Shown here one piece after another: positions 2,572 through 25,278 of a DNA stretch of 26,520 bases (positions within the stretch are counted from its first letter, which is position 1; each line of letters opens with the position of its first letter). The position numbers and the translations under genes are program-made. The stretch spans positions 1 to 26,520 of IMG/VR virus record IMGVR_UViG_3300020074_000103. The stretch is one strand, 5' to 3'. The notes below the pieces were generated by a model. It was not told where the DNA came from. It saw only the letters and a program-made list of their open reading frames with translations, and did no database searches. Origin of the DNA: a virus.

Positions 2572-4527
2572 TTATTTATTGCAGTTGCAAATCTTCTTTA
2601 CTTCATCAAGTTCCAACTTTAAGGCCTTGATGGCTTCCACTAATAATGGAACCATTTTCTCGTACTTCACTGTAAGATATTGTTCATCAATGGGTGCTGG
2701 TGCCACCACTTCTGGTAGAACTGCTTGTACTTCTTGTGCGCTTAAACCAACTTGCATTGCATCATTGTTGTAACCTAGTGACTTGGCTACTTCATTTTCT
2801 GTGAAGTAGTAACCATTCAATGATGCCACCTTGTCCAAGGCATTGTCAATAGTGCCTTGGAAGTTCTTCAAACGAGCATCTGAATAGAAAGCGGTGATTT
2901 CATTGGTGGCTCTGATTTCACCTGCTGTTCCTGAGCCTGCTGTACCCACACCCAAAGAGTTGAATTGTACATTGGAGCCTGTACCTACTGCTTGCCCAAT
3001 GCTGATGGTGACGGCGCCTGTGGCACCGGACACTGAAACACCTGTGCCTGCCACATTGCTAGTGACACCCGCGTTGGTCAATGTCACAGAACCACCAAGT
3101 GACACTGAACCGCCACCTGACATACCAGTACCTGCTGTGACTGTTACTGCACTGTTCACCAAGCCACCGTTTGGAAGACCTGTGCAATTGGTCAATGTGC
3201 CTGAGCTAGGTGTGCCTAGAGCAGGTGTCACAAGGGTTGGGCTGGTTGCCAACACCACAGAACCTGAACCAGTGGTGCCATTGCTCAAGTTGGAAGCAGC
3301 AATTTGTGAACCGTTGATGAGATAGTTCTTACCGGTTGGGATGTTGATGTGTTCTGAACTGCTCCAAGAGTTAGTGCCGTTGCTGTAGGTCCAAGTTTTG
3401 TTACCTGCAGTTGTGGCTTCCACAGTTAGACCTGCGCCATCTGCACCTGCGTTTGTGGCGTTGCCCTTGGCAACAGTCAAGTTCAAATCATCAATATCAA
3501 CTGTGGTGCTGTTCACTGTGGTGGTGGTACCGTTCACAGTCAAGTCACCTGATATAGTAACAGCATTACCACTCAATGAAATGGCAACTGCGCCTGTTGA
3601 GGACTTGATGTCATTACCTGTCACAGTCAAATCACCCTTCACTTCCACATCAGCGGCATTCAATGTGATGGCAGTGGCACCTGTTGAGGACTTGATGTCA
3701 TTACCTGTGACTGTTAAATCACCTGTGATAGCAACATCTGCTCCTGCCATGGTGATGGCGGTGGTGGCGCTGGAGCTGGAGGCAACAACTAATTGACCGC
3801 CAGATTGTGTGAAGCGACCGAATTCTGTGCCACCGTCTCGCAAAATGATGTCACCGCCATCAGCATCCAGAACAATGTCAGCAGCAGCATCCAGAGTGAA
3901 ATCTGCTGATGCATTCACTTGTGCAATGGTGGGTGTGGTGATGGTTGGGCTACTGTTGAACACCAACAAACCTGTACCAGTTTCATCAGACACAGCAGCA
4001 AGCATTTGTGCTGATGTGGCAGTCAATGTGTTGCTGGCAAGGCTGATGGTTTTATTGGTCAATGTTTGTGTAGTGTCAGTGCCCACCATGGTTGTGGTAG
4101 CATCAGGTATGGTGACCACTCTATCTGCTGTAGGATCCACCACAGTCAATGTGGTTTCAAATGCATCCGCAGTGGCACCTTCAAAGAACAAACCGTTGGT
4201 GACAATAGCAGCATCCAAAGTCTTGTTGGTGAGTGTTTGTGCACCATCCAGTGTGGTTAAAACACGTGTGGCAGCTCCTGTGTAGAACTTGAAATCACCG
4301 GCATTGTTCCAGAAGTCACCTGAAACAGGTGATGTTGGGTCGGCACTACCAGCTACAACACGGACGCTAGCTGTGGAAGCACTGCTGGTGACTGTTGTCA
4401 GTTTACCAGTCATGGAGTTACTGCCATCTTTCTCCAGTTTATCAGAGTTCAAATTACTGAAGTTGGTGTCTACTTCAGTATTTGTAAGTGGTGTACCTTT
4501 GACGTTTCTTAAGGTTAATGTGGACAT
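2572..4527 (-). CDS. Tail fibre with C-terminal S74 self-cleaving chaperone domain, 651 aa
   Basis: A receptor-binding fibre, expected to be trimeric. The N-terminus (LTLRNVKGTPLTNTEVDTNF) is the type that anchors such fibres in T4-like marine phages. The shaft, roughly residues 40-540, is a low-complexity Thr, Ala, Gly, Asn and Ser beta-rich stretch with TLTNKT motifs and 29-residue repeats around GDLTVTGNDIKSSTGA. From about 549 to the end lies a peptidase S74 intramolecular chaperone. It has the S549-D550 cleavage site in YSDARLKN, the GLSAQEVQAVLPEVV motif, YEKMVPLLVEAIK, and a final coiled coil. S74 domains fold the trimer and then cut themselves off at the Ser-Asp site. The last residues, CNCNK, are unusually cysteine-rich. 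AGAGGA lies five bases before the ATG, and a late promoter sits in the preceding gene. Confidence 0.9.
   Translation of the reverse strand: MSTLTLRNVKGTPLTNTEVDTNFSNLNSDKLEKDGSNSMTGKLTTVTSSASTASVRVVAGSADPTSPVSGDFWNNAGDFKFYTGAATRVLTTLDGAQTLTNKTLDAAIVTNGLFFEGATADAFETTLTVVDPTADRVVTIPDATTTMVGTDTTQTLTNKTISLASNTLTATSAQMLAAVSDETGTGLLVFNSSPTITTPTIAQVNASADFTLDAAADIVLDADGGDIILRDGGTEFGRFTQSGGQLVVASSSSATTAITMAGADVAITGDLTVTGNDIKSSTGATAITLNAADVEVKGDLTVTGNDIKSSTGAVAISLSGNAVTISGDLTVNGTTTTVNSTTVDIDDLNLTVAKGNATNAGADGAGLTVEATTAGNKTWTYSNGTNSWSSSEHINIPTGKNYLINGSQIAASNLSNGTTGSGSVVLATSPTLVTPALGTPSSGTLTNCTGLPNGGLVNSAVTVTAGTGMSGGGSVSLGGSVTLTNAGVTSNVAGTGVSVSGATGAVTISIGQAVGTGSNVQFNSLGVGTAGSGTAGEIRATNEITAFYSDARLKNFQGTIDNALDKVASLNGYYFTENEVAKSLGYNNDAMQVGLSAQEVQAVLPEVVAPAPIDEQYLTVKYEKMVPLLVEAIKALKLELDEVKKICNCNK
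2573..2580 (-). promoter_or_regulatory. Late promoter word AATAAATA
   Basis: The minus strand reads AATAAATA, matching the NATAAATA late consensus known from T4-like cyanophages. It overlaps the stop codon of the S74 fibre gene. The start of transcription would fall near 2567, giving an 18-base leader with AGGGAG for the 58-residue gene. Confidence 0.6.
3593..3708. repeat. Two 29-base direct repeats 87 bases apart within the tail fibre gene
   Basis: The segments 3593-3621 and 3680-3708 are identical over 29 bases and lie 87 bases apart. They encode, on the minus strand, the conserved part of a 29-residue shaft repeat (TVTGNDIKSSTG). The reading frame is kept, so this is an internal protein repeat in the fibre shaft that could change length by recombination. 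Confidence 0.8.
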
Positions 4528-11190: not shown

Positions 11191-13848
11191 TTAGAAGTTG
11201 ATAAACAATTTGAATGTTTCTGTTTGTTCAGACTGACGCACCAATGGTGCGATATTACTCAGATAGATAACTTCACCTGCACGTTGAGAAATTTCAGGCT
11301 CAACCAATGAGGTGATGGTCAACCCAGATTCACCTGTTGTGACATTTTCCAATATGGATTCATCACTGATATTATTTATCACTGGTAGCAGATAAACAGT
11401 TGTGTTGTCCACATATGCCACGATGTACTCTCCATTACTATCTGTAGTCACAACATCATCAAGATTGTATTTGGTTCCATCAGGCACTGTTATCACGAAA
11501 CATGCGTTACCTGTGTTGGCAGAGAACAAAGTTTCATTGTCAAATGTCTTAATGTTTTTGATGACGCCATATTGACGAAAATCATTTTCTAGGAAAAAAT
11601 CTTCTTGAAAATCTTCAATGGCTACTGCGATGCCTATTGTTGTGGCAAACAATTCTTGTGGAATATTGGAACCATGACCGCCTTGAGGTGAAATCACGGC
11701 ACGAAGTTCACCCTCTGTGCCATCACCACTGATGTTCAATTCAGCAAATGAGTATCCTGTGCCACGGTCTGTGATGGTGACGGCAGTGATTTCACCATCC
11801 ACCACTGTCAACTCAGCTGCAGCTCCAGTGCCATCACCGTTGATGGACACACTAGTGGTGGCTTGAACATATCCGGAACCACCATCAACAATTTCTATGA
11901 AATCAATTTGTCCGTTGGTGGCAACAGCATATCCAGCAACATTTTGATTCACAATGTTGGGCAAGTCTGTGGTTTCAATAACCACAGAACCTGAAGCACC
12001 TGTACCACCACCACCAAGAATCAACACAAATGCAAAGCTGTATCCAGAACCGCCATCAGTGAGATTCAATTCTGTAACCAGACCTGCGGATATCTCAGCT
12101 GTGGCTTCAGCACCAACACCATCACCTACAATGATGACTGTTGGTGTTGTGGTGTAGCTGGATCCTTGGGAATCTAGAATTATTTCACTGATGGTGCCGT
12201 TATGGTCAAATCGTGTGGATGTACCATAGAATTTCACTGGGATGTAATCATCATTCAGAAATTTCACACGGTCTGCAGCAGGAACTTCATACATCAACTG
12301 CCAGGTGTATCCATCAGACAATGTTTTAGGACCCACTTCTGAGAAGGCAGGTAGCACTGTGGATGGATTGCCATTGTTGTTGTCCAAACACTTGTAGATT
12401 CTGAAATTGTTACTGTTGAACGCATAGAAATCTTCATCTGATATATCCACAGTGTCATCATATTGCACATAGATGGTGTCAGCTTCCCAATCAATTCTTC
12501 TTGCCATCAATGTAATATCACTAGGATTCACCTTCTTCACACCTAAAATGTTTCTCTTTACAGAACTGTCCTCAGAACGTGTGTCCACAGGAGTAGGTGC
12601 TGTAGGTTCTGTTGCCCATTCCAAAGGACGAGACAAGAACACGTAGAAGAAATCATGTGGGTTGGGAAAATTGGTTATGGTGAAGGTGTTGATGGTCACA
12701 GTTTGATCCAAGGGACCTGTCAACGTGGTGTCACCCAGTCCGAATAGAGGAGTGATGTTGATGGCAGTACCAGCATCAGCATTGGCAAATGTAGTGGCCA
12801 ACTTGATGGTATCGGCTGTCACTTTGATGATGAAATAATTAGTGCTATCTGTCAATGTTGCAATTGAGCCAGAATCTTCCGTGTATGTGACTTCTTGTCC
12901 AGTCACAAAACCATGGTCAGGTAGATAGAATGTGTTGTCAATTTTCAGAAATGCTTGTGCACTGTTTCCTGTGCCTGTGAGATTGATGGCTGATCCTCCA
13001 GATGTCGAGGACACTTGGAAGGTGTTTGCGGTGGCTCCCACCACAAAGTATTCAGTCTCATTTACCAATCCTCCGATGGCAGTGCCACCATTGGAAAAGT
13101 AACTAACTATATCACCGTTAGAAAATCCATGGGAGGAACTGGTGATGGTTTCTGTGGCTGTGTTCACACCTGAGGTTAACACATTCACACCATGTAAATT
13201 CAACAGTTGTTCATCCACTGCAGCACCTTCAATGTATTCTTCCACAAGAATCAGTTGAAAGGCAGAACCTGATGCAGCGGATGCATTTATATTGATGGCA
13301 GTAGGTGAGGATGCAATGGCAAATGCCCGACTTGTTGCCAGTTTGATGGTGTCATCATCTATCACAATAATGAAATAGGACACAGCGTTCACCAGATTGG
13401 TGATGCCAGCTGCGGCGCCATTTTCGAAATAAATCACCTTGTCACCTTCATTGAATCCATGATCCACGTAGGTGATGGTGTCTGCACCGTCATCCACATC
13501 AGCGGCCGCGAATTCTATTCCATTGATGGTGAGTGTGGTGACTTCTTCACCTATGGGTGTCAGAAGTTCCACACTGGTACCATCTGTGGCAATGTAGTCC
13601 TCAGTTAACACTTTGTCACCATCTACAAAGACTTCAATTCTTCCAGGTGTGTAGGTCAAAGTTTTACCTTTGATGTCCTCACCTGTGAATGTAGTGTCTC
13701 CAGCAGTTGCCGAATAGGTGTACATTGTGGTGTCCAAAGTGTTCAGAGTGTTCAACTCTCCACTAGGGACATTCAATGTGTTTACAATATCTCGGTGAAA
13801 ACTGCGTGCAAGTTCCGTCCGGAACCTAATCGGCAATAATGCTGGCAT
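11191..13848 (-). CDS. gp8: Baseplate wedge subunit gp8, greatly expanded, 885 aa
   Basis: T4 gp8 is a 334-residue wedge subunit that dimerises in the baseplate. Conserved gp8 blocks remain here in order: FRTELARSF at 9-17; FYVFLSRPLEWA at 401-412; NILGVKKV, then MARRIDW at 447-453; FRIYKCLDN at 482-490; SDGYTWQLMYEVP at 511-523 with DDYIPV after it; and the C-terminal GEVIYLSN to QTETFKLFINF (858-885). About 550 extra residues lie between these blocks. There are three HGF-x-x-G modules at about 125-366 and GGSGY/GDGTGA modules at about 563-715. A DDVVTTDSNGEYIV module near 797 resembles one in gp53. A GGHGSNIPQELF block at 723-734 may be conserved in this branch. The start has no clear Shine-Dalgarno. 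Homology is argued from remembered T4 motifs and from position after gp6 and the gp7-slot gene. Confidence 0.8.
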   Translation of the reverse strand: MPALLPIRFRTELARSFHRDIVNTLNVPSGELNTLNTLDTTMYTYSATAGDTTFTGEDIKGKTLTYTPGRIEVFVDGDKVLTEDYIATDGTSVELLTPIGEEVTTLTINGIEFAAADVDDGADTITYVDHGFNEGDKVIYFENGAAAGITNLVNAVSYFIIVIDDDTIKLATSRAFAIASSPTAININASAASGSAFQLILVEEYIEGAAVDEQLLNLHGVNVLTSGVNTATETITSSSHGFSNGDIVSYFSNGGTAIGGLVNETEYFVVGATANTFQVSSTSGGSAINLTGTGNSAQAFLKIDNTFYLPDHGFVTGQEVTYTEDSGSIATLTDSTNYFIIKVTADTIKLATTFANADAGTAINITPLFGLGDTTLTGPLDQTVTINTFTITNFPNPHDFFYVFLSRPLEWATEPTAPTPVDTRSEDSSVKRNILGVKKVNPSDITLMARRIDWEADTIYVQYDDTVDISDEDFYAFNSNNFRIYKCLDNNNGNPSTVLPAFSEVGPKTLSDGYTWQLMYEVPAADRVKFLNDDYIPVKFYGTSTRFDHNGTISEIILDSQGSSYTTTPTVIIVGDGVGAEATAEISAGLVTELNLTDGGSGYSFAFVLILGGGGTGASGSVVIETTDLPNIVNQNVAGYAVATNGQIDFIEIVDGGSGYVQATTSVSINGDGTGAAAELTVVDGEITAVTITDRGTGYSFAELNISGDGTEGELRAVISPQGGHGSNIPQELFATTIGIAVAIEDFQEDFFLENDFRQYGVIKNIKTFDNETLFSANTGNACFVITVPDGTKYNLDDVVTTDSNGEYIVAYVDNTTVYLLPVINNISDESILENVTTGESGLTITSLVEPEISQRAGEVIYLSNIAPLVRQSEQTETFKLFINF
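12751..13476 (-). repeat. Three divergent HGF-module repeats in gp8
   Basis: The encoded protein has three related units of about 60-75 residues, at about 125-200, 235-302 and 308-366. Each has a HGFxxGDxVxY-type opening, then xxLxxxxxYFII/YFVV, then DTIKLAT or NTFQVSS, then an AINI/AINL strand. They are a tandem beta-rich insertion between the first gp8 block and the gp8 core. Confidence 0.75.
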
Positions 13849-13858
13849 TAGTTTTTAA

Positions 13859-14317
13859 TTATGAAAGTGTGACAGTCCAAGTGATGGTCATAGCGTCTGA
13901 TGCACCTTTGTTCACTACTGAGAACACAGTGCGGCACAACATGGTACCTGCTGATGAAGCATTGAAGATACCTGCTTCCACTAGAGCACCTGTACCTGTA
14001 CCGGCTGCGAATGTACAAACATATTGCACAGAGTCGTTGGCGGTTGATGAGGTGGTTTGTGTTGATGATGTCAAAGAAGTACGTGAGCCTGCCACAGCTG
14101 CACCTAGAGTGGTGTTGCCAGCTGCTGCTGCTGTGTTGTCTGTACCCACTTCCATGTGTGACATCACACCTGAAGATGTGCCAATCATACGTGAAGAGAT
14201 GTATGCTTTACCTACAGTCACCACTAGATTGTCAATGTTCCGTTCTTCTTTTACTACACCATTTTCATCATGTACTACAATCTTCACCTTACCGGTTGCT
14301 TTGATTAGTTCTTCCAT
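13859..14317 (-). CDS. Beta-rich phage structural protein, 152 aa
   Basis: The sequence begins MEELIKATGKVKIVVHDENG and continues with a MEVGTDNTAAAAGNTTL stretch, a Thr/Ser-rich middle and a C-terminal half with VEAGIFNASSAGTML then VFSVVNKGASDAMTITWTVTLS. This pattern (GTG-A, EAGIFN, GTML-RTVF, NKG, ITWT) occurs in small tail-associated structural proteins of many tailed phages; I know of no defined function. It has its own late promoter (14371-14364) and a good ribosome site, GAGGAA, shortly before the ATG. It may therefore be made in larger amounts than the giant proteins around it. It ends 10 bases before gp8. A decoration or fibre-attachment role is an inference. Confidence 0.8.
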   Translation of the reverse strand: MEELIKATGKVKIVVHDENGVVKEERNIDNLVVTVGKAYISSRMIGTSSGVMSHMEVGTDNTAAAAGNTTLGAAVAGSRTSLTSSTQTTSSTANDSVQYVCTFAAGTGTGALVEAGIFNASSAGTMLCRTVFSVVNKGASDAMTITWTVTLS

Positions 14318-14363
14318 TGTTTTCCTCTGGTTTTAAGTTGATGAAACTACGAATCAATACTAG

Positions 14364-17271: not shown

Positions 17272-19155
17272 TTATTGTGTGAATGGACGACAGCTAATAA
17301 TCAAACCTGCTGAAATATTAGCTTCTGAATTGCTTTCACTATCATCTAGTGTTAGAATGTTATTTCTGGAAGGAGTTGCTTCTATAGAACTTGTAGCTGT
17401 CTCAGCTGTACGAACAATACTACTGGAAATGTTTTGATATAGTGGTTGAGGTTGTACATTTACATACACTTCATTTACATTACCCACATATTCTGTGACA
17501 ATAACATTTCGCAGTGTTACAATTCCTTGATTGTAATTAATGGTGCCTACATTTGCAATAGGTAAACGTGTATCTTGGTCCACAAATTTTATAGTTCCTT
17601 CTCCATCCCTATTTGCAATAACATCATTGGCAAAATCTTGTAGATGTCCAAAATATGATAGGTTATTTACTGTAGTGATGAAGTTACTGCTTCTGAAGGT
17701 CTCTGGCTCAATAGCAGTTAAAAAATTCAATGTTTCAGAATATCCAGATGTATCACTAGTTCCAATAACAACACGTTTTTGTAGTCGAATTTGAAACACA
17801 GAACCTACAATGGAAGTGTTCAATTGTTTCACGGTTTCTGAAATTTTAGACAAAAAGAACGTTCTGTCCAAAGTACCCAATTCATTGTCAAAATAATCTT
17901 GAATACCTGCAATCACCAATGAACTCAATTCTGAAGCTTTCAATGAGGTCAATTTAGGATTGTAATTCACAATACCTTGCAAACCAAGATAAACATATTC
18001 TGGATCCACAAACTCATGTTTGATGCTCATCACACTTCGTGGACGAAGAATGGTTTCTTTGATGAAGTCTTTATCAGCATTAGTTATGACTGCGTTCGTG
18101 ATGGGATCAACAGAAATGAACACGGTACCGTAAACTGGAGGATCATTTTCTTCTCCTCCCCAAACAGTGACTTCTCTGGCTTTAGAAAAATTTTGTTTGA
18201 TTAATGTTCGATAATCTGCTGCTGTAACAGCTCTGTTTCTGTTGGCATTGAACTTGGGTGCATTGAAACGAATACTATCAACTGATTCTCTGAAAGAACC
18301 ACCTGTTGCGGGTGAAACCAAAGTTATGGTAACCTCAGTTTCTCCATCAATATCACCAATAAGAGAAAAATCTCTGGCGCCATTTGGTGCAGAACCTTCA
18401 GACACAAGGTAGGTCACAGTCACAATGTTTCCAGGTATAAGTGTAGCACCAACATTGCCATCACCAAACACAATGTGATATTGACCTGAATTGTTTTCTT
18501 CCACGAAGAACACTTTGCTGGTGTCAGTTATATTTACTATAGATGATGTTTTGGACCAATCTGTTGATGACAGGTCGGCTGAGGAAGTTTGAACAGCAAC
18601 TTGTATTGTCGTGGTGTCTACGTTTCCATTAGGAATAATCAAAGGTCCAGATGTGTTGTCTGAACCAATCAAAAATGTGTTGGAAAGATAGATTCCTTCA
18701 ATCAGTTCCACATCTTCAAACACAAACACCTCACCTTCACTTACTGTGGCTGTTTGATTTTCATTCACATTAAAGGTGTAGGTTTCTCCATTTATAGCTG
18801 CATTAAATTTAGTGCTATTAGTAATGCTTAATGTGTTACCTGCTGTGACATCCTTTGTTACTATCAGATCCACGGTGGCTTTTGCTGAAGTTGTGGACCT
18901 TGGACTGTATCCCAACATCTTAGCCAATGACACCACAGATGTTCTTTTGATGGCTGTATCAATGAACATCTCATTGGCTTGAAGATTTGCCAACACAGCA
19001 TTGTAATGTGTGTTGTATGCCAACACATCCAACAACAAACTCAAAGCAGAACCACTGAAGTCATAATCTGTGAATTCAGTTTGTGCTGCCAGATAGGTTC
19101 GTAGATTGTTTTTAATAGTGTCAAAATCTAGCTCTGTGACATTTAGTTCAGCCAT
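17272..19155 (-). CDS. gp6: Baseplate wedge gp6, Baseplate_J family, 627 aa
   Basis: gp6 forms the connected inner ring of the T4-type baseplate and is usually about 660 residues; 627 fits. The N-terminus, FDTIKNNLRTYLAAQTEFTDYDFSGSALSLLLDVLAYNTHYN (key words TEFxDYDFxGS and LLDVLAYNTHYNA), is typical of T4-like gp6. A core with NRAVTAADYRTLI (about 305-320), VTVWGGEENDPPVYGTVFISV and PRSVMSIKHEFVDPEYVYL belongs to the Baseplate_J/gp47 family. It begins on the stop of gp25 (TAATG overlap), exactly the gp25-gp6 order of T4. The C-terminal 120 residues are variable. Expected partners are gp7 and gp53 in the wedge. Confidence 0.9.
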   Translation of the reverse strand: MAELNVTELDFDTIKNNLRTYLAAQTEFTDYDFSGSALSLLLDVLAYNTHYNAVLANLQANEMFIDTAIKRTSVVSLAKMLGYSPRSTTSAKATVDLIVTKDVTAGNTLSITNSTKFNAAINGETYTFNVNENQTATVSEGEVFVFEDVELIEGIYLSNTFLIGSDNTSGPLIIPNGNVDTTTIQVAVQTSSADLSSTDWSKTSSIVNITDTSKVFFVEENNSGQYHIVFGDGNVGATLIPGNIVTVTYLVSEGSAPNGARDFSLIGDIDGETEVTITLVSPATGGSFRESVDSIRFNAPKFNANRNRAVTAADYRTLIKQNFSKAREVTVWGGEENDPPVYGTVFISVDPITNAVITNADKDFIKETILRPRSVMSIKHEFVDPEYVYLGLQGIVNYNPKLTSLKASELSSLVIAGIQDYFDNELGTLDRTFFLSKISETVKQLNTSIVGSVFQIRLQKRVVIGTSDTSGYSETLNFLTAIEPETFRSSNFITTVNNLSYFGHLQDFANDVIANRDGEGTIKFVDQDTRLPIANVGTINYNQGIVTLRNVIVTEYVGNVNEVYVNVQPQPLYQNISSSIVRTAETATSSIEATPSRNNILTLDDSESNSEANISAGLIISCRPFTQ

Positions 19156-19553
19156 TATCGTAATCTCTCTAAAGTAACCGTAAGGGAAGTTGGTTGATTG
19201 ATACCTATGACAGTGAAATACAGAGAAATCTCATAGGCATTGTCATCTTCAAAAGGAAACACCACCACTTGTTCCAAAGCAATGCGAGGCTCATACAAAC
19301 TGATGGTGTTTTCAATACTACGTTTTATAGCCATGGTTGTGATAGCATCCACAGGCTCAAACAACAAATTACGTAAAGGTGACCCAATGTTAGGTTGAAA
19401 CAATCTTTCTCCCAAGTTGGTGTTCAACAATAATTTCAAAGATTGTTTTATAGAATTGGCATCTATTTTTTTCAACACATCCTGAGTTTGTGGATGTGCT
19501 GCAAAAGACAAGTCCAAATCTTTGTACAGTTTGTTGGGAGAAAGAATAGGCAT
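19155..19553 (-). CDS. gp25: Baseplate wedge gp25, 132 aa
   Basis: gp25 nucleates the wedge and sheath in contractile tails; T4 gp25 is also 132 residues. The protein shows the gp25/lysozyme-like fold signatures: DIKQSLKLLLNTNLGERLFQP-like block (SIKQSLKLLL, GERLFQPNIGSPLRNLLFEP), then YEPRI with the conserved EPR triplet, then alternating strands to the C-terminus. A late promoter word sits only nine bases before the ATG, and no Shine-Dalgarno is visible. Translation may be leaderless from that promoter or coupled to gp5, which ends 21 bases upstream. It overlaps gp6 by one base. Confidence 0.95.
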   Translation of the reverse strand: MPILSPNKLYKDLDLSFAAHPQTQDVLKKIDANSIKQSLKLLLNTNLGERLFQPNIGSPLRNLLFEPVDAITTMAIKRSIENTISLYEPRIALEQVVVFPFEDDNAYEISLYFTVIGINQPTSLTVTLERLR

Positions 19554-19573: not shown

Positions 19574-22102
19574 TTATGCGAGGGCTATAAACTTGTTGAA
19601 TTCCTTCTGACGGTCTGCCAATCCATTGTACCCACCGTTCACAACTTTAGTTACAGGAGAGACAGCTTCCAGACCTCCGTCTGCCTTGGAGTTAAGATTT
19701 CTGGTGCTCCAGAACCAGGCAGCTGACAACAAAGGATATTTGGTGGCTACCAGGTCAGGGTTGGCCACCACATCGTCAGGAACAAACTTCCTGAATGCTA
19801 TATAGTTGGATTTACCCGTCAATTGAATGTAACCACGACCACGATACTTGAATCCTTCACCTGAGGCTTCTGGGCCATTACCTATTCTATTAGCATAGGC
19901 GCGACTAGCAATTCTTTCAGGCTGTCTTTCATATTGTTTGGCTATCTCATCAGTAGGGAAATATTTGCCAAAAACAGCTCTTAAACTTTTCCAGCTGTAG
20001 TTTAGATTTTCTTGCACCGCTTTGAAATGACCGGACTCATGTGAACATTGTGCCAGGAAGTGAGACAGACGTTGTGGTGTGTTGATTTTGAATTTACACA
20101 CCACTTCAGGAATCTGTAGCCGCACTGTTTCTGGGATTTTGTTCTTCAATTTTTCTATGTAAGTAGCCATTGCTGGTGATAGACAATCATCCGTAACTGT
20201 TGCAGCGGGGGCGGGTTCCTGACAGCTATCTGGAAGATGAACAAATTTCATCTTTCTGCCGGGATTAGGATACTTCACAAAACATCCACATCCTGAGCGA
20301 TCGAATCCAGCTCCCCCAGTGGTGTTTCCTTCAATAGTTTTTAATCGTTTGTCAGGAGCTGCATCTGGATAGATGCCAGCCACGATACCTATGTGATTGG
20401 CATGGTTGGGTCTGGCTGGATCACCATAATATAAAATAGCAGCTCCCAACTTGGGTGTATTAGACAATAGACCTTTAGCCTCTCCCCATTCATGCCAACC
20501 ACGGCAGGCAGCTGGATCTTTGGGAGGTGTTGGAGCACCTGCAGCTTTCCACCAATAGGTCACAGCTGAAGCACACCACTCAACACCTTTACCTGTGTTT
20601 TTCAATTGTTGTTGATGGAATGCATAAGATGTGGTGCTCTTCACCATTTCATCTATGATGCCTAACTGCCCGGCGGGTAGTTCACCGCCACCTACCTTAC
20701 CACCTGTGTTTTTTGCTGCTCCTGCACCAGTACCTGTTTCCAACATACCAACGTGTTTCATGGCTTCTTCAATAACTTGCTTGGCAAGCTCACATGTGGC
20801 TTGTTGTGGTTCAGGATTGGATGCAGGGGCAGAAATGACTTCTGCCACATCTCCTTCAGATTGTTTCAATGATGCATATTCTTGGGACATTGGGTCATCT
20901 AAAGCTCTGGCTTCCAATGCTTCAGCAAAATAAGCAGCACGTTGTTCAGGTGTCAGTGTGAATCCAGGAGGTGTGATTTCTGGTTCTTCCGGTGTTTTTT
21001 CCTCAACTGCGTCAGCAGGTGTGGCTGCGGTGTAAGGAACAGGTGTTGGAGGAGAAACTGACAAGGCTCCTTTGAATGTACCTTGAATGATGTTTCCTGA
21101 TGTGATGGGACTGGTGAGAGAAGTTTTTGTGGCAGCTTCCAATTTCAAATTGGATCCTGAATTTATGCTAATGTCAGAAGAAGAAACCACATCAATAGAT
21201 CCCTTGGTATCAACATTGACATCTTTGCCTGCAATCATATCAATTTTTCCTGCCACATTCAATTCATAATCACCGTGTACTTGTGTTTTTAGGTTTCCAT
21301 CCACCTGCAAATTGCAATTGTTTTTCACATAAATGTTGCAACTACCTTCCACAGTGATATTGGCTTTACCTTTGATATTAACAAAACCATTACAATCAAT
21401 GATGTGATAATCATCACCGACAATATGACGAATCATAGTACCGGCTCCATCCACTTCTACATAAGTTCCTTTGGTGTGATAGATGTGTAATCTTTCAGCA
21501 CCAGGACTATCATCCAGTTCAATAACATGACCGCTTTCTGTTTGTGTTACATGATTGTAAGGATATTTCGGGCCGTAAGGAATTTCTGGTTGTTCCCAGG
21601 TACCACCGTTATTGGCAACATCCACTAAAGTGACACGTGCCTCCTTCTTTTTTTCAACAATGGTTTCTTGTACTTTTTGATTTCTGGCTAAACGATTGGT
21701 GTCAGGTTCATTGATGTATTCAGGGAGTGGATATTTGTTGGTGGGATCTTGGAATCCATAATTACTGGTGTTTTTCAACTTGTCATAGTAGGAACGAGCC
21801 ATGACACCACCAATGGTTCCCATTATCAAAGGTTCTTGACAATCTTCACCATCTCGGAAGAATCCCACAACCCAAGTGCCTTCCACTGGACCTATAGGTG
21901 TGGTTCCAATACCTGACATGGCAGCAGAGGTGATGGGTTGCATGGGATATGCCCATGGCAAACTATAAGTGGGTAGTTCTACTTTGTCTGCGGTGTGATA
22001 ACCAACACAGCGAACTTTACATCTACCTAAAAAAAGTGGGTCATTTCTATCTTCAACAACACCCACCCACCAGAAAAATCCATTGCCGTAAATGTTTTCC
22101 AT
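19574..22102 (-). CDS. gp5: Baseplate hub spike gp5 with C-terminal CHAP-like and GH19 lytic domains, 842 aa
   Basis: gp5 is the cell-puncturing spike under the tail tube. Residues 1-105 form the gp5 OB-fold (FFWWVGVVEDRNDPLFLGRCKVR, key words WVGVVEDR and GRCKVRCVGYH, and MGTIGG). Residues about 185-335 are the short repeats of the triple-stranded beta-helix needle (NGFVNIKGKANITVEGS-type). A Pro/Glu linker follows. Residues about 436-625 look like a CHAP/NlpC-P60 amidase-peptidase: C510 in GVEWCASAVTYWW and H570 in NHANHIGIV are the likely catalytic pair. Residues about 640-842 are a GH19 chitinase/lysozyme-type glycosidase, with E689 in QCSHESGHF as acid, E698 in QENLNYS, and YRGRGYIQLTG at 753-763. 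T4 gp5 (575 residues) instead carries an internal GH24 lysozyme. The hub gene is one base upstream. Confidence 0.9.
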   Translation of the reverse strand: MENIYGNGFFWWVGVVEDRNDPLFLGRCKVRCVGYHTADKVELPTYSLPWAYPMQPITSAAMSGIGTTPIGPVEGTWVVGFFRDGEDCQEPLIMGTIGGVMARSYYDKLKNTSNYGFQDPTNKYPLPEYINEPDTNRLARNQKVQETIVEKKKEARVTLVDVANNGGTWEQPEIPYGPKYPYNHVTQTESGHVIELDDSPGAERLHIYHTKGTYVEVDGAGTMIRHIVGDDYHIIDCNGFVNIKGKANITVEGSCNIYVKNNCNLQVDGNLKTQVHGDYELNVAGKIDMIAGKDVNVDTKGSIDVVSSSDISINSGSNLKLEAATKTSLTSPITSGNIIQGTFKGALSVSPPTPVPYTAATPADAVEEKTPEEPEITPPGFTLTPEQRAAYFAEALEARALDDPMSQEYASLKQSEGDVAEVISAPASNPEPQQATCELAKQVIEEAMKHVGMLETGTGAGAAKNTGGKVGGGELPAGQLGIIDEMVKSTTSYAFHQQQLKNTGKGVEWCASAVTYWWKAAGAPTPPKDPAACRGWHEWGEAKGLLSNTPKLGAAILYYGDPARPNHANHIGIVAGIYPDAAPDKRLKTIEGNTTGGAGFDRSGCGCFVKYPNPGRKMKFVHLPDSCQEPAPAATVTDDCLSPAMATYIEKLKNKIPETVRLQIPEVVCKFKINTPQRLSHFLAQCSHESGHFKAVQENLNYSWKSLRAVFGKYFPTDEIAKQYERQPERIASRAYANRIGNGPEASGEGFKYRGRGYIQLTGKSNYIAFRKFVPDDVVANPDLVATKYPLLSAAWFWSTRNLNSKADGGLEAVSPVTKVVNGGYNGLADRQKEFNKFIALA

Positions 22103-22103
22103 A

Positions 22104-23360
22104 TTATGGTAGTTCCTTTTGATATGAATCTTTCATGACTTCCATGTACATTGTATGCTTTTTAGCCACAATGCTATGCCGAATAGCTGTCACCAGATAG
22201 TTTCCTGAAAGATATTGGTCTATTAAATCTCTACCAGTTGCTTGATTTAAATCACGTTCTGTTGATTTCGGAATGTTCAGAACAACTACTTTTCCCACTT
22301 CCATGTCTGTTCTTCCTAGGACTTCAACCATCAAATGAAAGTTACTGGCTTCATACATCAAACTGTTTCTTTGTGCTGCCCATTTTTCAAACAATGGATC
22401 CTTGGTTTCTTCAAACATGCTGTATTGTTTGGTTCTTACACGACGAAACATATCTGGTTTTCTTGGTATTGTTTGAGGAAATGTTTGAGATTTTCCTGTA
22501 TCATGCAAATTCAACACTTTGTTATGATATTCAAACTGATTATGAAAATTTTCATAATATTGTTTCAACGTGATGTCATGAGTTATCAAATTGCTAGCAT
22601 AGTATCCAAAATCTTGAGCTTGAAACACGTCAAAAAATGTGGAAGGACTGATGTTCAAAATTCTTCTGAATTGAACACTAACATTCAATGCTTCTTCTGT
22701 GGCCGCAGTGGCACTGTATTGAAATGTGTCATATGGATTGCTTACACCCTGGCGAATCAAGTGTTCAATGCTAGTCAAATAGAAATTTTTGTTGCCTTCA
22801 AAGAACACCACATTAGGAGCATTTTTGTAACTTCTGGTGACTATCCAGTTGATTAATTTCAATGGTGACCAGTAAGGTGACACCACAGTAGTGCTGGACA
22901 GATGTTCCTCTAGAATTTTTAATTCTTTTTTATCTTTCAGGTATTTGTTAAACACAGCCTGAATGATTTCATGAGTTTTTCCAGAAAACTGTTTACTGAT
23001 ACGTGTGATGTTGTCTGTTAATGCTTCCAATGAAATCAAACTGATGCTGTATATTTGTTGTGTGTTGTCTATAATACGTTCTTCCACACCATTCACATAG
23101 AACTGCTTTTTAAACACACTTTCTCGAAATTGCGGTGTTCGAAATTGTATTGTGACTTGTTCAATACCTGCCAAGGGCAATTGTGTGATGAAGCTGGCAG
23201 AGTCTTTAACCACGATGTATCCAGTCATCACACTGGAAAAAATGTCCTCGTAGATGGATGTTTCCAACACCAGGTTACGAATGTCAAATTTTTTACCGCC
23301 CGCAGTTACAGATATTTCTTCAATTTTGATATCACCTGCTTCTAGAATTGCATCCGGCAT
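22104..23360 (-). CDS. Baseplate hub protein, gp27-like, 418 aa
   Basis: Probably the trimeric hub that links the tail tube to gp5. The N-terminal half has a beta-barrel-like pattern, with SIYEDIFSSVMTGYIVVKDS at 34-53 and QFYVNGVEERI. The middle includes SPYWSPLKLINWIVTRSYKN. The C-terminal domain has VEVLGRTDMEVGKVVVLNIP, then DLIDQYLSGNYLVTAIRHSI and HTMYMEVMKDS. That C-terminal pattern (metric value, GxYLVxxIRH) is common to the gp27/gpD hub family. T4 gp27 is 391 residues. It overlaps gp53 by one base and gp5 follows after one base, which is the expected co-expression of hub and spike. The exact T4 name is inferred from position, not a confident alignment. Confidence 0.75.
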   Translation of the reverse strand: MPDAILEAGDIKIEEISVTAGGKKFDIRNLVLETSIYEDIFSSVMTGYIVVKDSASFITQLPLAGIEQVTIQFRTPQFRESVFKKQFYVNGVEERIIDNTQQIYSISLISLEALTDNITRISKQFSGKTHEIIQAVFNKYLKDKKELKILEEHLSSTTVVSPYWSPLKLINWIVTRSYKNAPNVVFFEGNKNFYLTSIEHLIRQGVSNPYDTFQYSATAATEEALNVSVQFRRILNISPSTFFDVFQAQDFGYYASNLITHDITLKQYYENFHNQFEYHNKVLNLHDTGKSQTFPQTIPRKPDMFRRVRTKQYSMFEETKDPLFEKWAAQRNSLMYEASNFHLMVEVLGRTDMEVGKVVVLNIPKSTERDLNQATGRDLIDQYLSGNYLVTAIRHSIVAKKHTMYMEVMKDSYQKELP

Positions 23361-24064
23361 TATCCATCACCATTAATTAAATCAGTGAATTGTTGTACCA
23401 CAGCTTCTACATACAGGCTGCTCAACACTTTGATGGGTCTTTTGGCATCATTCACATCCACTTCATGTTGATAGTTTGTGACAGGATTGGTGGAGGCAGA
23501 ATATCCTTCATCCACAATGTATCCTATTTCTGTATCATAATAATGATGCACATCTTCTTCTGGATCCGTTACAGAACTGATAGGCAAATCTTCTGTTTCT
23601 TGCGTGATGTTGTTCAACACATTGTCTGTTGTTAGAATAATTTTTCCCACCTGAGAACGCATGTGTACAACATCATCTACAATTTTAGTTACCAGAAACT
23701 TTCCATCATTGTCTGAGGTGATGACATCATCAGCAGCATATTCTGATGAATCCGGCACTTCAATTTTGAAATCATACTTCAGATACACCAAGTCTGTAAC
23801 TTGTGCATCTGGGATAGGCCATTCTTCTCTGGGATTGGTGATGTCATTCACCAGCAACACCAACCAGTGATACATTGGTTTTCCGTAGAACAAATTGCTC
23901 ACCATTTCAGGTGTTTCACCATCTTTCACTAGATGTTGATCCATGAACACTGTGTTTTCACGAAATTTTTCTGACAAGGAAACTCGACGAAGAAAATCCG
24001 TGATGATGATGGGTTTGTTGTTGCTTTGAACCAGTACTGCAGGAAATCGTGAAAAGTAGTCCAT
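23360..24064 (-). CDS. gp53: Baseplate wedge gp53, 234 aa
   Basis: gp53 is the last wedge component to be added and joins adjacent wedges. The N-terminal half is characteristic: MDYFSRFPAVLV, then TDFLRRVSLSEKF, then the LysM-like region with VKDGETPEMVSNLFYGKPMYHWLVLLVND, key words DGETPE, LFYG and HWLVLLVN. The protein is about 40 residues longer than T4 gp53 (196). The extra length matches a beta module at 110-152 (AADDVITSDNDGKFLVTKI) that resembles one in this phage's gp8. The C-terminus resumes with NDAKRPIKVLSSLYVEAVVQQF. Its start lies two bases after the gp48-like gene, and its stop overlaps the next start (TAATG). Confidence 0.9.
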   Translation of the reverse strand: MDYFSRFPAVLVQSNNKPIIITDFLRRVSLSEKFRENTVFMDQHLVKDGETPEMVSNLFYGKPMYHWLVLLVNDITNPREEWPIPDAQVTDLVYLKYDFKIEVPDSSEYAADDVITSDNDGKFLVTKIVDDVVHMRSQVGKIILTTDNVLNNITQETEDLPISSVTDPEEDVHHYYDTEIGYIVDEGYSASTNPVTNYQHEVDVNDAKRPIKVLSSLYVEAVVQQFTDLINGDG

Positions 24065-24066
24065 GA

Positions 24067-25278
24067 TTAGAACCCAGCAGTAGCAATGCGGTCGCGAAAC
24101 AACAATTCCAATTCCAAAAAAGTCAATGATAGAGAAATTTCTGAAGGAGCACCACCAGTACCACGTACAGATATGAAATCACTGCCACCATATTCCACTT
24201 TCATGTTGGTGAGTGCACAGCTACTGGTTCTAAACAAATTGGTGTTTCTTCCTTCATCTTTGAAGTGATATTCAATCTGAAATTCAGCAGGATAGGACAC
24301 GAAAAATTTTTCGTCACCTAGTGTAGGATGCATATAGTATTTGAATAAATCAATGATATCCAACACTTGATTCATTTCATAATCATTTTTTGGAATGAAT
24401 GTGTAATCAAAATTGAAGGTACGAAAATTCATGGTCTTGAACAACTGTGATTTGAAAGGATTTACAGCAGTTCCAGAAAATGCACTGGCTGCAGAAGCAA
24501 TACTACCCATGCCACCCAATCCCATTTCATTCATGGCACTGTCAGCATTTTGCAATGCAATAGCTGCACCTGCGCCACCTGCGGTTTTGATAGCGTCCAA
24601 AGCAGCTGAGGCACGGCCGGCCATACCGTCACCGTTACCAGTCATTATACCTCTTATTGCACCAGCAGCTTCACTTGCCATGCCTCCTAAAGCTCCTAAA
24701 TCTTCATCTGCCCACGTGGCATTGTATTCAGTTCTGGGTTTGTTGTTCATGTACAATGCCACAACGTATTTCAAAAATTTTGCATCTCTGGCAGAACCAC
24801 CTTCAGCTGTGGCTACTGTGGCGGCGAGGGTACCACCGGCTACACCACCTGCTACAGTAGCTCCAGTTGTGGCAACGTTGGCTAAATTTTGTTTCGTGGT
24901 GTCAATAACCCTAACACCTGTTTTTTGATTCAACCCAAAGAAACTAGTAGTTCTTCTGGCAACTCCTCTAGCCACACTGGCACCACCTACAGCACCTGCA
25001 GCTCCTGACACAGCTGCGGCCGCAACTGGACCCACTTGTGTTTCTGGACGAAATTGTGAGCTGGGTTCCACAAGATTTAATGCTTTCACAGCCTTGTCAC
25101 TTGCCAATTGTTCCTTGGGAGTGACACCAGAACGTTCTGAGATGTAGAACATCATGTAATGCGGCGTGGTTTCACTGCCCACATCCTGAGGATATCTGTA
25201 CACTGTCAGTTCATTGGCTTCTAAACCTGTAATGGCATTGCCAGGTGTCAGGGTGTTTGCACTTCGATATTTGGCCAT
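24067..25278 (-). CDS. gp48: Baseplate tail tube cap/initiator, gp48/gp54-like, 403 aa
   Basis: In T4, gp48 and gp54 sit on the finished baseplate and start tail tube polymerisation. The N-terminus carries LTVYRYPQDVGS and HYMMFYISERS, typical of the gp48 group in T4-like marine phages. The C-terminal 130 residues hold MNFRTFNFDYTFIPKNDYE (key words FRTFNFDYTFIPK), IIDLFKYYMHP, FLSYPAEF-like FFVSYPAEFQIEY and LSLTFLELELLF, the tube-like beta domain. The middle, about residues 82-260, is Ala/Gly-rich with hydrophobic low-complexity runs. AGGA lies nine bases before the ATG and a late promoter lies 30 bases upstream. No separate gp54 gene is in the window. T4 gp48 is 364 residues. Confidence 0.75.
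   Translation of the reverse strand: MAKYRSANTLTPGNAITGLEANELTVYRYPQDVGSETTPHYMMFYISERSGVTPKEQLASDKAVKALNLVEPSSQFRPETQVGPVAAAAVSGAAGAVGGASVARGVARRTTSFFGLNQKTGVRVIDTTKQNLANVATTGATVAGGVAGGTLAATVATAEGGSARDAKFLKYVVALYMNNKPRTEYNATWADEDLGALGGMASEAAGAIRGIMTGNGDGMAGRASAALDAIKTAGGAGAAIALQNADSAMNEMGLGGMGSIASAASAFSGTAVNPFKSQLFKTMNFRTFNFDYTFIPKNDYEMNQVLDIIDLFKYYMHPTLGDEKFFVSYPAEFQIEYHFKDEGRNTNLFRTSSCALTNMKVEYGGSDFISVRGTGGAPSEISLSLTFLELELLFRDRIATAGF

Follow-up and report, generated by a model that had tools for sequence, protein, structure and literature searches.

A T4-type central spike with predicted CHAP and GH19 peptidoglycan hydrolases behind its needle in an uncultured myovirus

Within a 26.5-kb metagenomic fragment of an uncultured T4-like phage (IMGVR_UViG_3300020074_000103, positions 1-26,520; hereafter the window, meaning this entire stretch), we find an 842-aa protein that by sequence comparison is the gp5 central spike of a T4-like myovirus, and whose C-terminal half is predicted to hold two enzymes of different bond specificity. 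Our main reading, to which we give a probability of roughly 0.8 on the sequence evidence, is that this protein is a virion-borne spike able to hydrolyze both kinds of peptidoglycan bond, and that it acts at entry. The spike gene, its modules, and its baseplate neighbors are as follows:

17272..19155, minus strand: gp6 baseplate wedge (phrog_219, 1.3e-153; PF21379)
19155..19553, minus strand: gp25 baseplate wedge, directly downstream of gp5 (PF04965, 7.2e-19)
19574..22102, minus strand: gp5-type spike gene, 842 aa, ATG start, in the order OB - needle - linker - CHAP - GH19
21788..22102, minus strand: OB-fold domain of the spike, residues 1-105 (PF06714, 1.4e-28, passing the Pfam cut-off)
21593..21787, minus strand: connector, residues 106-170 (GFQDPTNKYPLPEYINEPDTNRLARN), from a phmmer alignment to T4 gp5 residues 4-123
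21068..21592, minus strand: trimeric beta-helix needle, residues about 171-345, from phmmer to T4 gp5 376-570 and a custom needle HMM
20795..21067, minus strand: A/P/E-rich linker, residues 346-436 (91 residues), conserved in the clade
20228..20794, minus strand: predicted CHAP (NlpC/P60 superfamily) domain, residues 437-625, with C510, H570, and E591/N593
19577..20182, minus strand: predicted GH19 glycosidase domain, residues 641-842, with E689, E698, and YRGRGYIQLTG
22104..23360, minus strand: hub-position tail protein (gp27 position), 418 aa, directly upstream of gp5 (phrog_350, 7e-68)
23360..24064, minus strand: gp53 baseplate wedge (PF11246, 3.7e-7)
24067..25278, minus strand: baseplate tail-tube cap, gp48-like (phrog_230, 2.1e-48)

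The original prediction had named the protein gp5 from its letters alone, and database searches bear this out—besides the PF06714 match of its OB fold, the full protein matches PHROG 430, 'baseplate hub subunit and tail lysozyme' (1.9e-97), and its best solved relative is T4 gp5 (1.8e-47, phmmer). Three stretches of the spike (residues 5-126, 169-278, and 212-317) align to T4 gp5 in the phmmer search, spanning the OB fold and the needle and jumping over the T4 lysozyme. Among relatives, the OB-fold domain retains 93-99% identity, with dN/dS of 0.03-0.05. The gene sits in a baseplate operon with gp25, gp53, and gp6, as does a T4-type gp5, and its placement between the hub-position gene and gp25 is the same in the window, in two homologous loci (L216 and L218), and in loci of the KVP40/D479 type; in L216 and L218, a phrog_350 hub-position gene precedes gp5, and ORFs the size of gp25 and gp6 come after. 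A Pfam search of the 418-aa hub-position protein returned no match. Elsewhere in the window, a tail fibre (2572-4527) ends in a Peptidase_S74 intramolecular chaperone (3e-10), and two wedge genes on the minus strand are separated by a gap that contains a 165-aa plus-strand ORF (13839-14336), which overlaps an ORF of 152 aa on the minus strand.

Neither Pfam nor phmmer detected a lysozyme family between the OB fold and the needle, where an internal GH24 enzyme of T4 type would lie; together with the jump in the T4 alignment, this upholds the proposed absence of the T4 lysozyme from that place. The accompanying claim that the OB fold passes directly into the needle needs correcting: a 65-residue connector remains, a homologue of the T4 linker between OB fold and lysozyme. 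The needle itself aligns with that of T4 gp5 at i-Evalues of 1e-14 and 7e-7 (phmmer) and reaches 2.7e-5 against Pfam Gp5_trimer_C, under the cut-off. The linker behind it keeps the motif LTPEQRAAYFAEALEARxxDDPMSQEYASLKQSE across the clade and is partly common to gp5 proteins with a C-terminal M15 peptidase (L027-L029), to L216-L218, and to a separate CHAP protein (L229; E 2e-4).

For residues 437-625, sequence and structure modelling together make a sound case for a CHAP/NlpC-P60 domain. Taken singly, the window domain stays below the PF05257 cut-off of 26 bits (6.3e-4 at 20.6 bits, and at most 23.8 bits), a Pfam scan of three relatives (L008, L012, and L013) left their CHAP unmatched, and a direct search of PDB sequences with the CHAP profile gave no relevant match. 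Its closest named relative is an endolysin from a Streptomyces phage, Speedwell, whose CHAP shares 31% identity with it over 119 residues and itself passes Pfam (1.8e-9). Scanning viral contigs with the window-Speedwell CHAP alignment as seed retrieved L216 (49% identity) and L217/L218 (46%), and the domains of L216 and L218 pass PF05257 at 1.6e-11 (44.9 bits) and 2.7e-7 (31.4 bits). The catalytic Cys-His pair named in the original prediction, C510 and H570, stands in CHAP/NlpC-P60 order and is invariant in 63/63 CHAP sequences, with a TxEGNT (TIEGN) motif coming after. An AlphaFold model of the whole C-terminal half, built from six close sequences, reached a pLDDT of 39 and was discarded; the model of the CHAP alone, from the 63-sequence alignment, has a papain-like fold (pLDDT 85, pTM 0.86). 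In Foldseek, its best PDB matches are mostly hydrolases of the NlpC/P60 and CHAP types, one of them being the CHAP of the phi812 hub protein; probabilities reach 1.00, but the best E is 6e-3 (all above 0.001).

The GH19 domain is recognized directly—it matches PF00182 at 5.5e-9 (36.6 bits, above the cut-off of 25.5) and solved GH19 endolysins down to 3.7e-33 (phmmer), and both catalytic glutamates, E689 and E698, are invariant in 6/6 GH19 sequences, in agreement with what had been read from the sequence at first. Judged by its endolysin relatives, the enzyme would be of N-acetylmuramidase type, with peptidoglycan rather than chitin as its probable substrate. The two families would thus have complementary targets, peptide bonds for the CHAP and glycan bonds for the GH19, as had been proposed.

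The five-part order is not confined to the window. Scanning viral contigs with the window protein yielded 14 loci, among which several span its full length with 76-100% identity, and the full domain order recurs in independent IMG/VR contigs with catalytic residues intact. In L218, from a divergent second lineage (L217/L218), OB-needle-linker-CHAP-GH19 is kept with a CHAP 46% identical to that of the window spike; L216 consists of OB-needle-linker-CHAP and lacks the GH19. All modules are under purifying selection, with dN/dS well below 1 in each and a maximum of 0.37 in the linker (the L013 CHAP is saturated). We also weighed whether the fusion might stem from chimeric contig assembly or from a local sequencing error, given that the window record is a metagenomic fragment and that IMG/VR may contain chimeric gp5 ORFs, of which locus L077 looks like an example; yet the recurrence of this open frame across many independent contigs, the divergent L218 included, together with the low dN/dS, leaves this source a negligible probability, and we take it to be refuted by these sequence comparisons. 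In L077 (3560-5299), the second half of the gp5 ORF resembles by eye a cellular aminoacyl-tRNA synthetase, and the contig is probably chimeric. Two further gp5-type ORFs have unusual layouts—a 1380-aa protein that contains collagen-like repeats and ends in a long fibre-like region (L042:3450-7589), and a protein of Rhizobium phage LG08 in which a transglycosylase-like stretch precedes the needle and no OB fold is recognizable by eye (L205:1930-4011).

A separate scan of 80 gp5 loci showed how the C-terminal position is used more widely: 10/80 have a C-terminal M15 peptidase and one has CHAP-GH19, on a contig whose gp5 is identical to that of the window, while custom HMMs recognized no enzyme in the rest, although a few of the latter ORFs run off their contigs. 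Among named phages, none of 4118 records matching the window spike covers 80% of it, and none of 3541 matching L218 covers 80% of that homologue; the circumstance named as refuting the original prediction, that this order be common in named T4-like phages, thus did not arise. When a genome collection was scanned with the CHAP-GH19 tail, relatives were absent from bacterial and archaeal genomes.

Phylogenies of the separate modules point to where the extension may have come from. In a tree of the OB fold and needle, the window clade falls inside a group (support 0.95) whose gp5s are extended at the C-terminus, in most cases by a peptidoglycan hydrolase—an M15 peptidase in L027-L030, L033, L034, L049, L056, L079, and BUCT-ZZ01, and a glycosidase-like domain in phiN3. 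CHAPs borne on gp5 make up a clade of their own (0.93), nested among CHAP proteins with an N-terminal domain starting MSWxIFK; the GH19s of gp5 fall together (0.96) with those of separate genes that directly follow CHAP genes of the MSWxIFK type, and stand-alone GH19s branch elsewhere. Spikes of BUCT-ZZ01 and PhiW-14, which have their GH19 in the T4 lysozyme slot, draw it from a second, different GH19 branch. In both loci whose neighbors were scanned (L220 and L236), gp25 follows just downstream of these separate genes for CHAP and GH19. The branching of both domains with separate neighboring genes beside gp25 suggests fusion within the baseplate locus, and the simplest reading would be that C-terminal modules on gp5 were swapped or added from adjacent baseplate genes. 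Separate genes beside gp25, OB-needle-CHAP in L216, and OB-needle-CHAP-GH19 in L218 and the window suggest a route of fusion that is open to checking by sequence comparison. The separate genes have features of their own: in L236:1551-4399, L225:2275-4446, L231:1371-3500, L220:2110-3522, and similar loci, a CHAP gene is followed immediately by a GH19 gene, the CHAP protein having an N-terminal domain of the form MSWxIFK...GxGVxAYW and the GH19 protein another, IIDDFIxYATxHLTTV.... In L236, a MSW-type protein with an M15-like C-terminus precedes the pair.

We propose that a CHAP peptidoglycan endopeptidase/amidase and a GH19 glycosidase, tethered behind the needle by a flexible linker, would replace the single lysozyme that T4 places between OB fold and needle. 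As a trimer, gp5 would present each enzyme in triplicate at the tail tip; tail contraction would push the spike through the outer membrane, and the tethered enzymes, folded back along the needle or trailing beside it, would enter the periplasm with it and there cut stem peptides and glycan strands, making a passage for the tail tube. We infer the trimeric state, virion location, enzymatic activity, and entry timing of the window spike, as well as the tip-side geometry of its enzymes. This geometry had been seen as raising a topological question, with enzymes beyond the needle perhaps having to be shed or folded back before penetration. The same geometry occurs in 'evolved' VgrGs, and the 91-residue linker, fully extended, would by arithmetic span about 300 A against a needle length of about 100 A in T4 (PMC4576200); the enzymes could thus rest folded back against the needle until the tail contracts, making shedding unnecessary. 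Fold-back is therefore allowed, but shedding finds no support here.

Whether the tail acts at entry at all bears on a competing explanation, namely that CHAP-GH19 is the endolysin, which proteolysis or internal initiation would free from gp5 for use when the infection ends. T4 gp5 is cleaved on maturation, a precedent for such release; 78/79 scanned GH19 loci lack gp5 domains, nearly all being stand-alone ORFs of about 160-320 aa, and the nearest named kin of the CHAP is, as described, an endolysin. Against this, the two domains group with proteins encoded beside gp25 and not with stand-alone GH19s, and a 101-kb contig with an identical gp5 has a separate Amidase_2 gene (L118:15661-16191, 4e-25), a candidate endolysin, so that the gp5 enzymes need not perform lysis. 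Between residues 330 and 545, moreover, there is no Shine-Dalgarno-like motif with a start codon, which disfavors an internal start before the CHAP. Taking both sides together, we regard release as an endolysin as distinctly unlikely and favor action of the intact spike at entry.

The window has no PAAR gene between gp5 and gp25, which raises the idea that the C-terminal extension replaces the PAAR tip protein, leaving the needle capped by enzymes and not by a PAAR cone. PAAR is likewise absent from all seven contigs of the clade (the window and six relatives, including contigs of 101 kb and 69 kb), from nine contigs with an M15-extended gp5, and from the L216/L218 records, and the 20/44 records of one survey that do have PAAR all lack a recognized C-terminal hydrolase on gp5. 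On the contrary side, a PAAR gene accompanies the C-terminally extended gp5 of BUCT-ZZ01 and of phiN3, a PAAR-like match under the cut-off lies next to gp5 in Melnitz, phages with non-extended spikes, P-TIM40 among them, lack PAAR too, and the IMG/VR records are fragments, the extended ones being related to each other. Replacement is therefore unlikely in our view, and as a rule that extension always replaces PAAR it is rejected by BUCT-ZZ01 and phiN3. Unlikely as well is the fuller picture of an uncapped needle with a tethered peptide and glycan cutter ahead of or around its tip, derived from fused adjacent CHAP/GH19 baseplate genes; if true, such a needle would be an alternative design for crossing peptidoglycan. 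In Pseudomonas phage Deifobo, a PAAR protein carries a C-terminal M15-like peptidase related to the M15 of Melnitz gp5 (L203:1937-2959), a tip peptidase by another route.

Comparison with known spikes shows which elements of this architecture have precedents. The window spike has its OB fold, needle, and gp53/gp25 neighborhood in common with T4 gp5, and virion-borne peptidoglycan cutting, a property of T4, is predicted for it; whereas a single GH24 lysozyme separates OB fold from needle in T4 gp5 (PMC4576200), that slot is empty here and two other enzymes follow the needle. Similar in layout are the M15-type gp5s of Kyanoviridae (Synechococcus phage BUCT-ZZ01 and Methylophilales phage Melnitz), in which needle, long linker, and C-terminal peptidase follow one another as in the window, but with an M15 metallopeptidase in place of CHAP; these and the IMG/VR gp5s of this type (L027-L030, L033, L034, L049, L079, and L096) belong to groups close to the window spike in the gp5 tree. 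BUCT-ZZ01 gp5 also has a GH19, and thus two cutters, but in the T4 slot and from the other GH19 branch. CHAP and GH19 occur together on the gp5 spike of Delftia phage PhiW-14 and Acinetobacter phages SH-Ab 15599 and nACB2, where both occupy the stretch from OB fold to needle and two genes, one OB-CHAP and one GH19-needle, share the spike between them; in PhiW-14, the missing first half is an unannotated 328-aa ORF with OB and CHAP directly before gene 82 (L002:2986-3972).

A CHAP enzyme on gp5 was described in 2011 for CBA120, and the Vi1 orthologue of CHAP-bearing gp5 was detected in virions (PMC3184105). Such Ackermannviridae gp5s (Kuttervirus Se-B, Taipeivirus May, and CBA120) resemble the window spike in bearing a CHAP (TIGR02594), but have this single enzyme in the lysozyme slot; an hhalign comparison of the two CHAPs is weak (probability 36%), and we therefore treat them as separate, distant subfamilies. 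In Sinorhizobium phage phiN3 (phiM12 group), gp110 runs, like the window spike, from OB fold to needle to a C-terminal endolysin-family domain (phrog_90; P0007), but this is one glycosidase-like domain of another family, and the next gene encodes an M15 peptidase protein. Beyond phages, 'evolved' VgrGs such as Vibrio cholerae VgrG3 and its pesticin-like variant VgrG3cp are OB-needle homologues with a peptidoglycan hydrolase after the needle, and the C-terminal domain of VgrG3 has been shown by experiment to cut peptidoglycan, working in the target periplasm (PMC9927483). The window spike has the same placement of an enzyme C-terminal to the needle, but VgrG3 is a bacterial weapon with an immunity protein and one enzyme, of other families; lying in a phage baseplate operon and not in a T6SS cluster with an immunity gene, the window spike is not a VgrG member. 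Glycosidase and endopeptidase are also joined in phi29 gp13, a podovirus tail-tip protein of unrelated architecture with lysozyme and LytM folds.

Neither the named phages nor the searched literature offered a case of CHAP and GH19 together after the needle in one chain. The novelty first proposed therefore holds for this order, but not for multi-enzyme gp5s or post-needle lytic domains in general, which named phages already possess (BUCT-ZZ01, Melnitz, PhiW-14, and phiN3). The comparison shows the enzyme of T4-type spikes to be a replaceable module with two possible places, before or after the needle, and the contrast between slot-type and tail-type spikes makes the position of the wall-cutting enzyme during penetration testable; CHAP and GH19 together are also candidate Gram-negative-active lysins. 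The parts of the window spike are thus known separately from these systems, and what is new, as judged by sequence, is their arrangement—one clade has stacked two predicted bond specificities behind the needle in a single chain.
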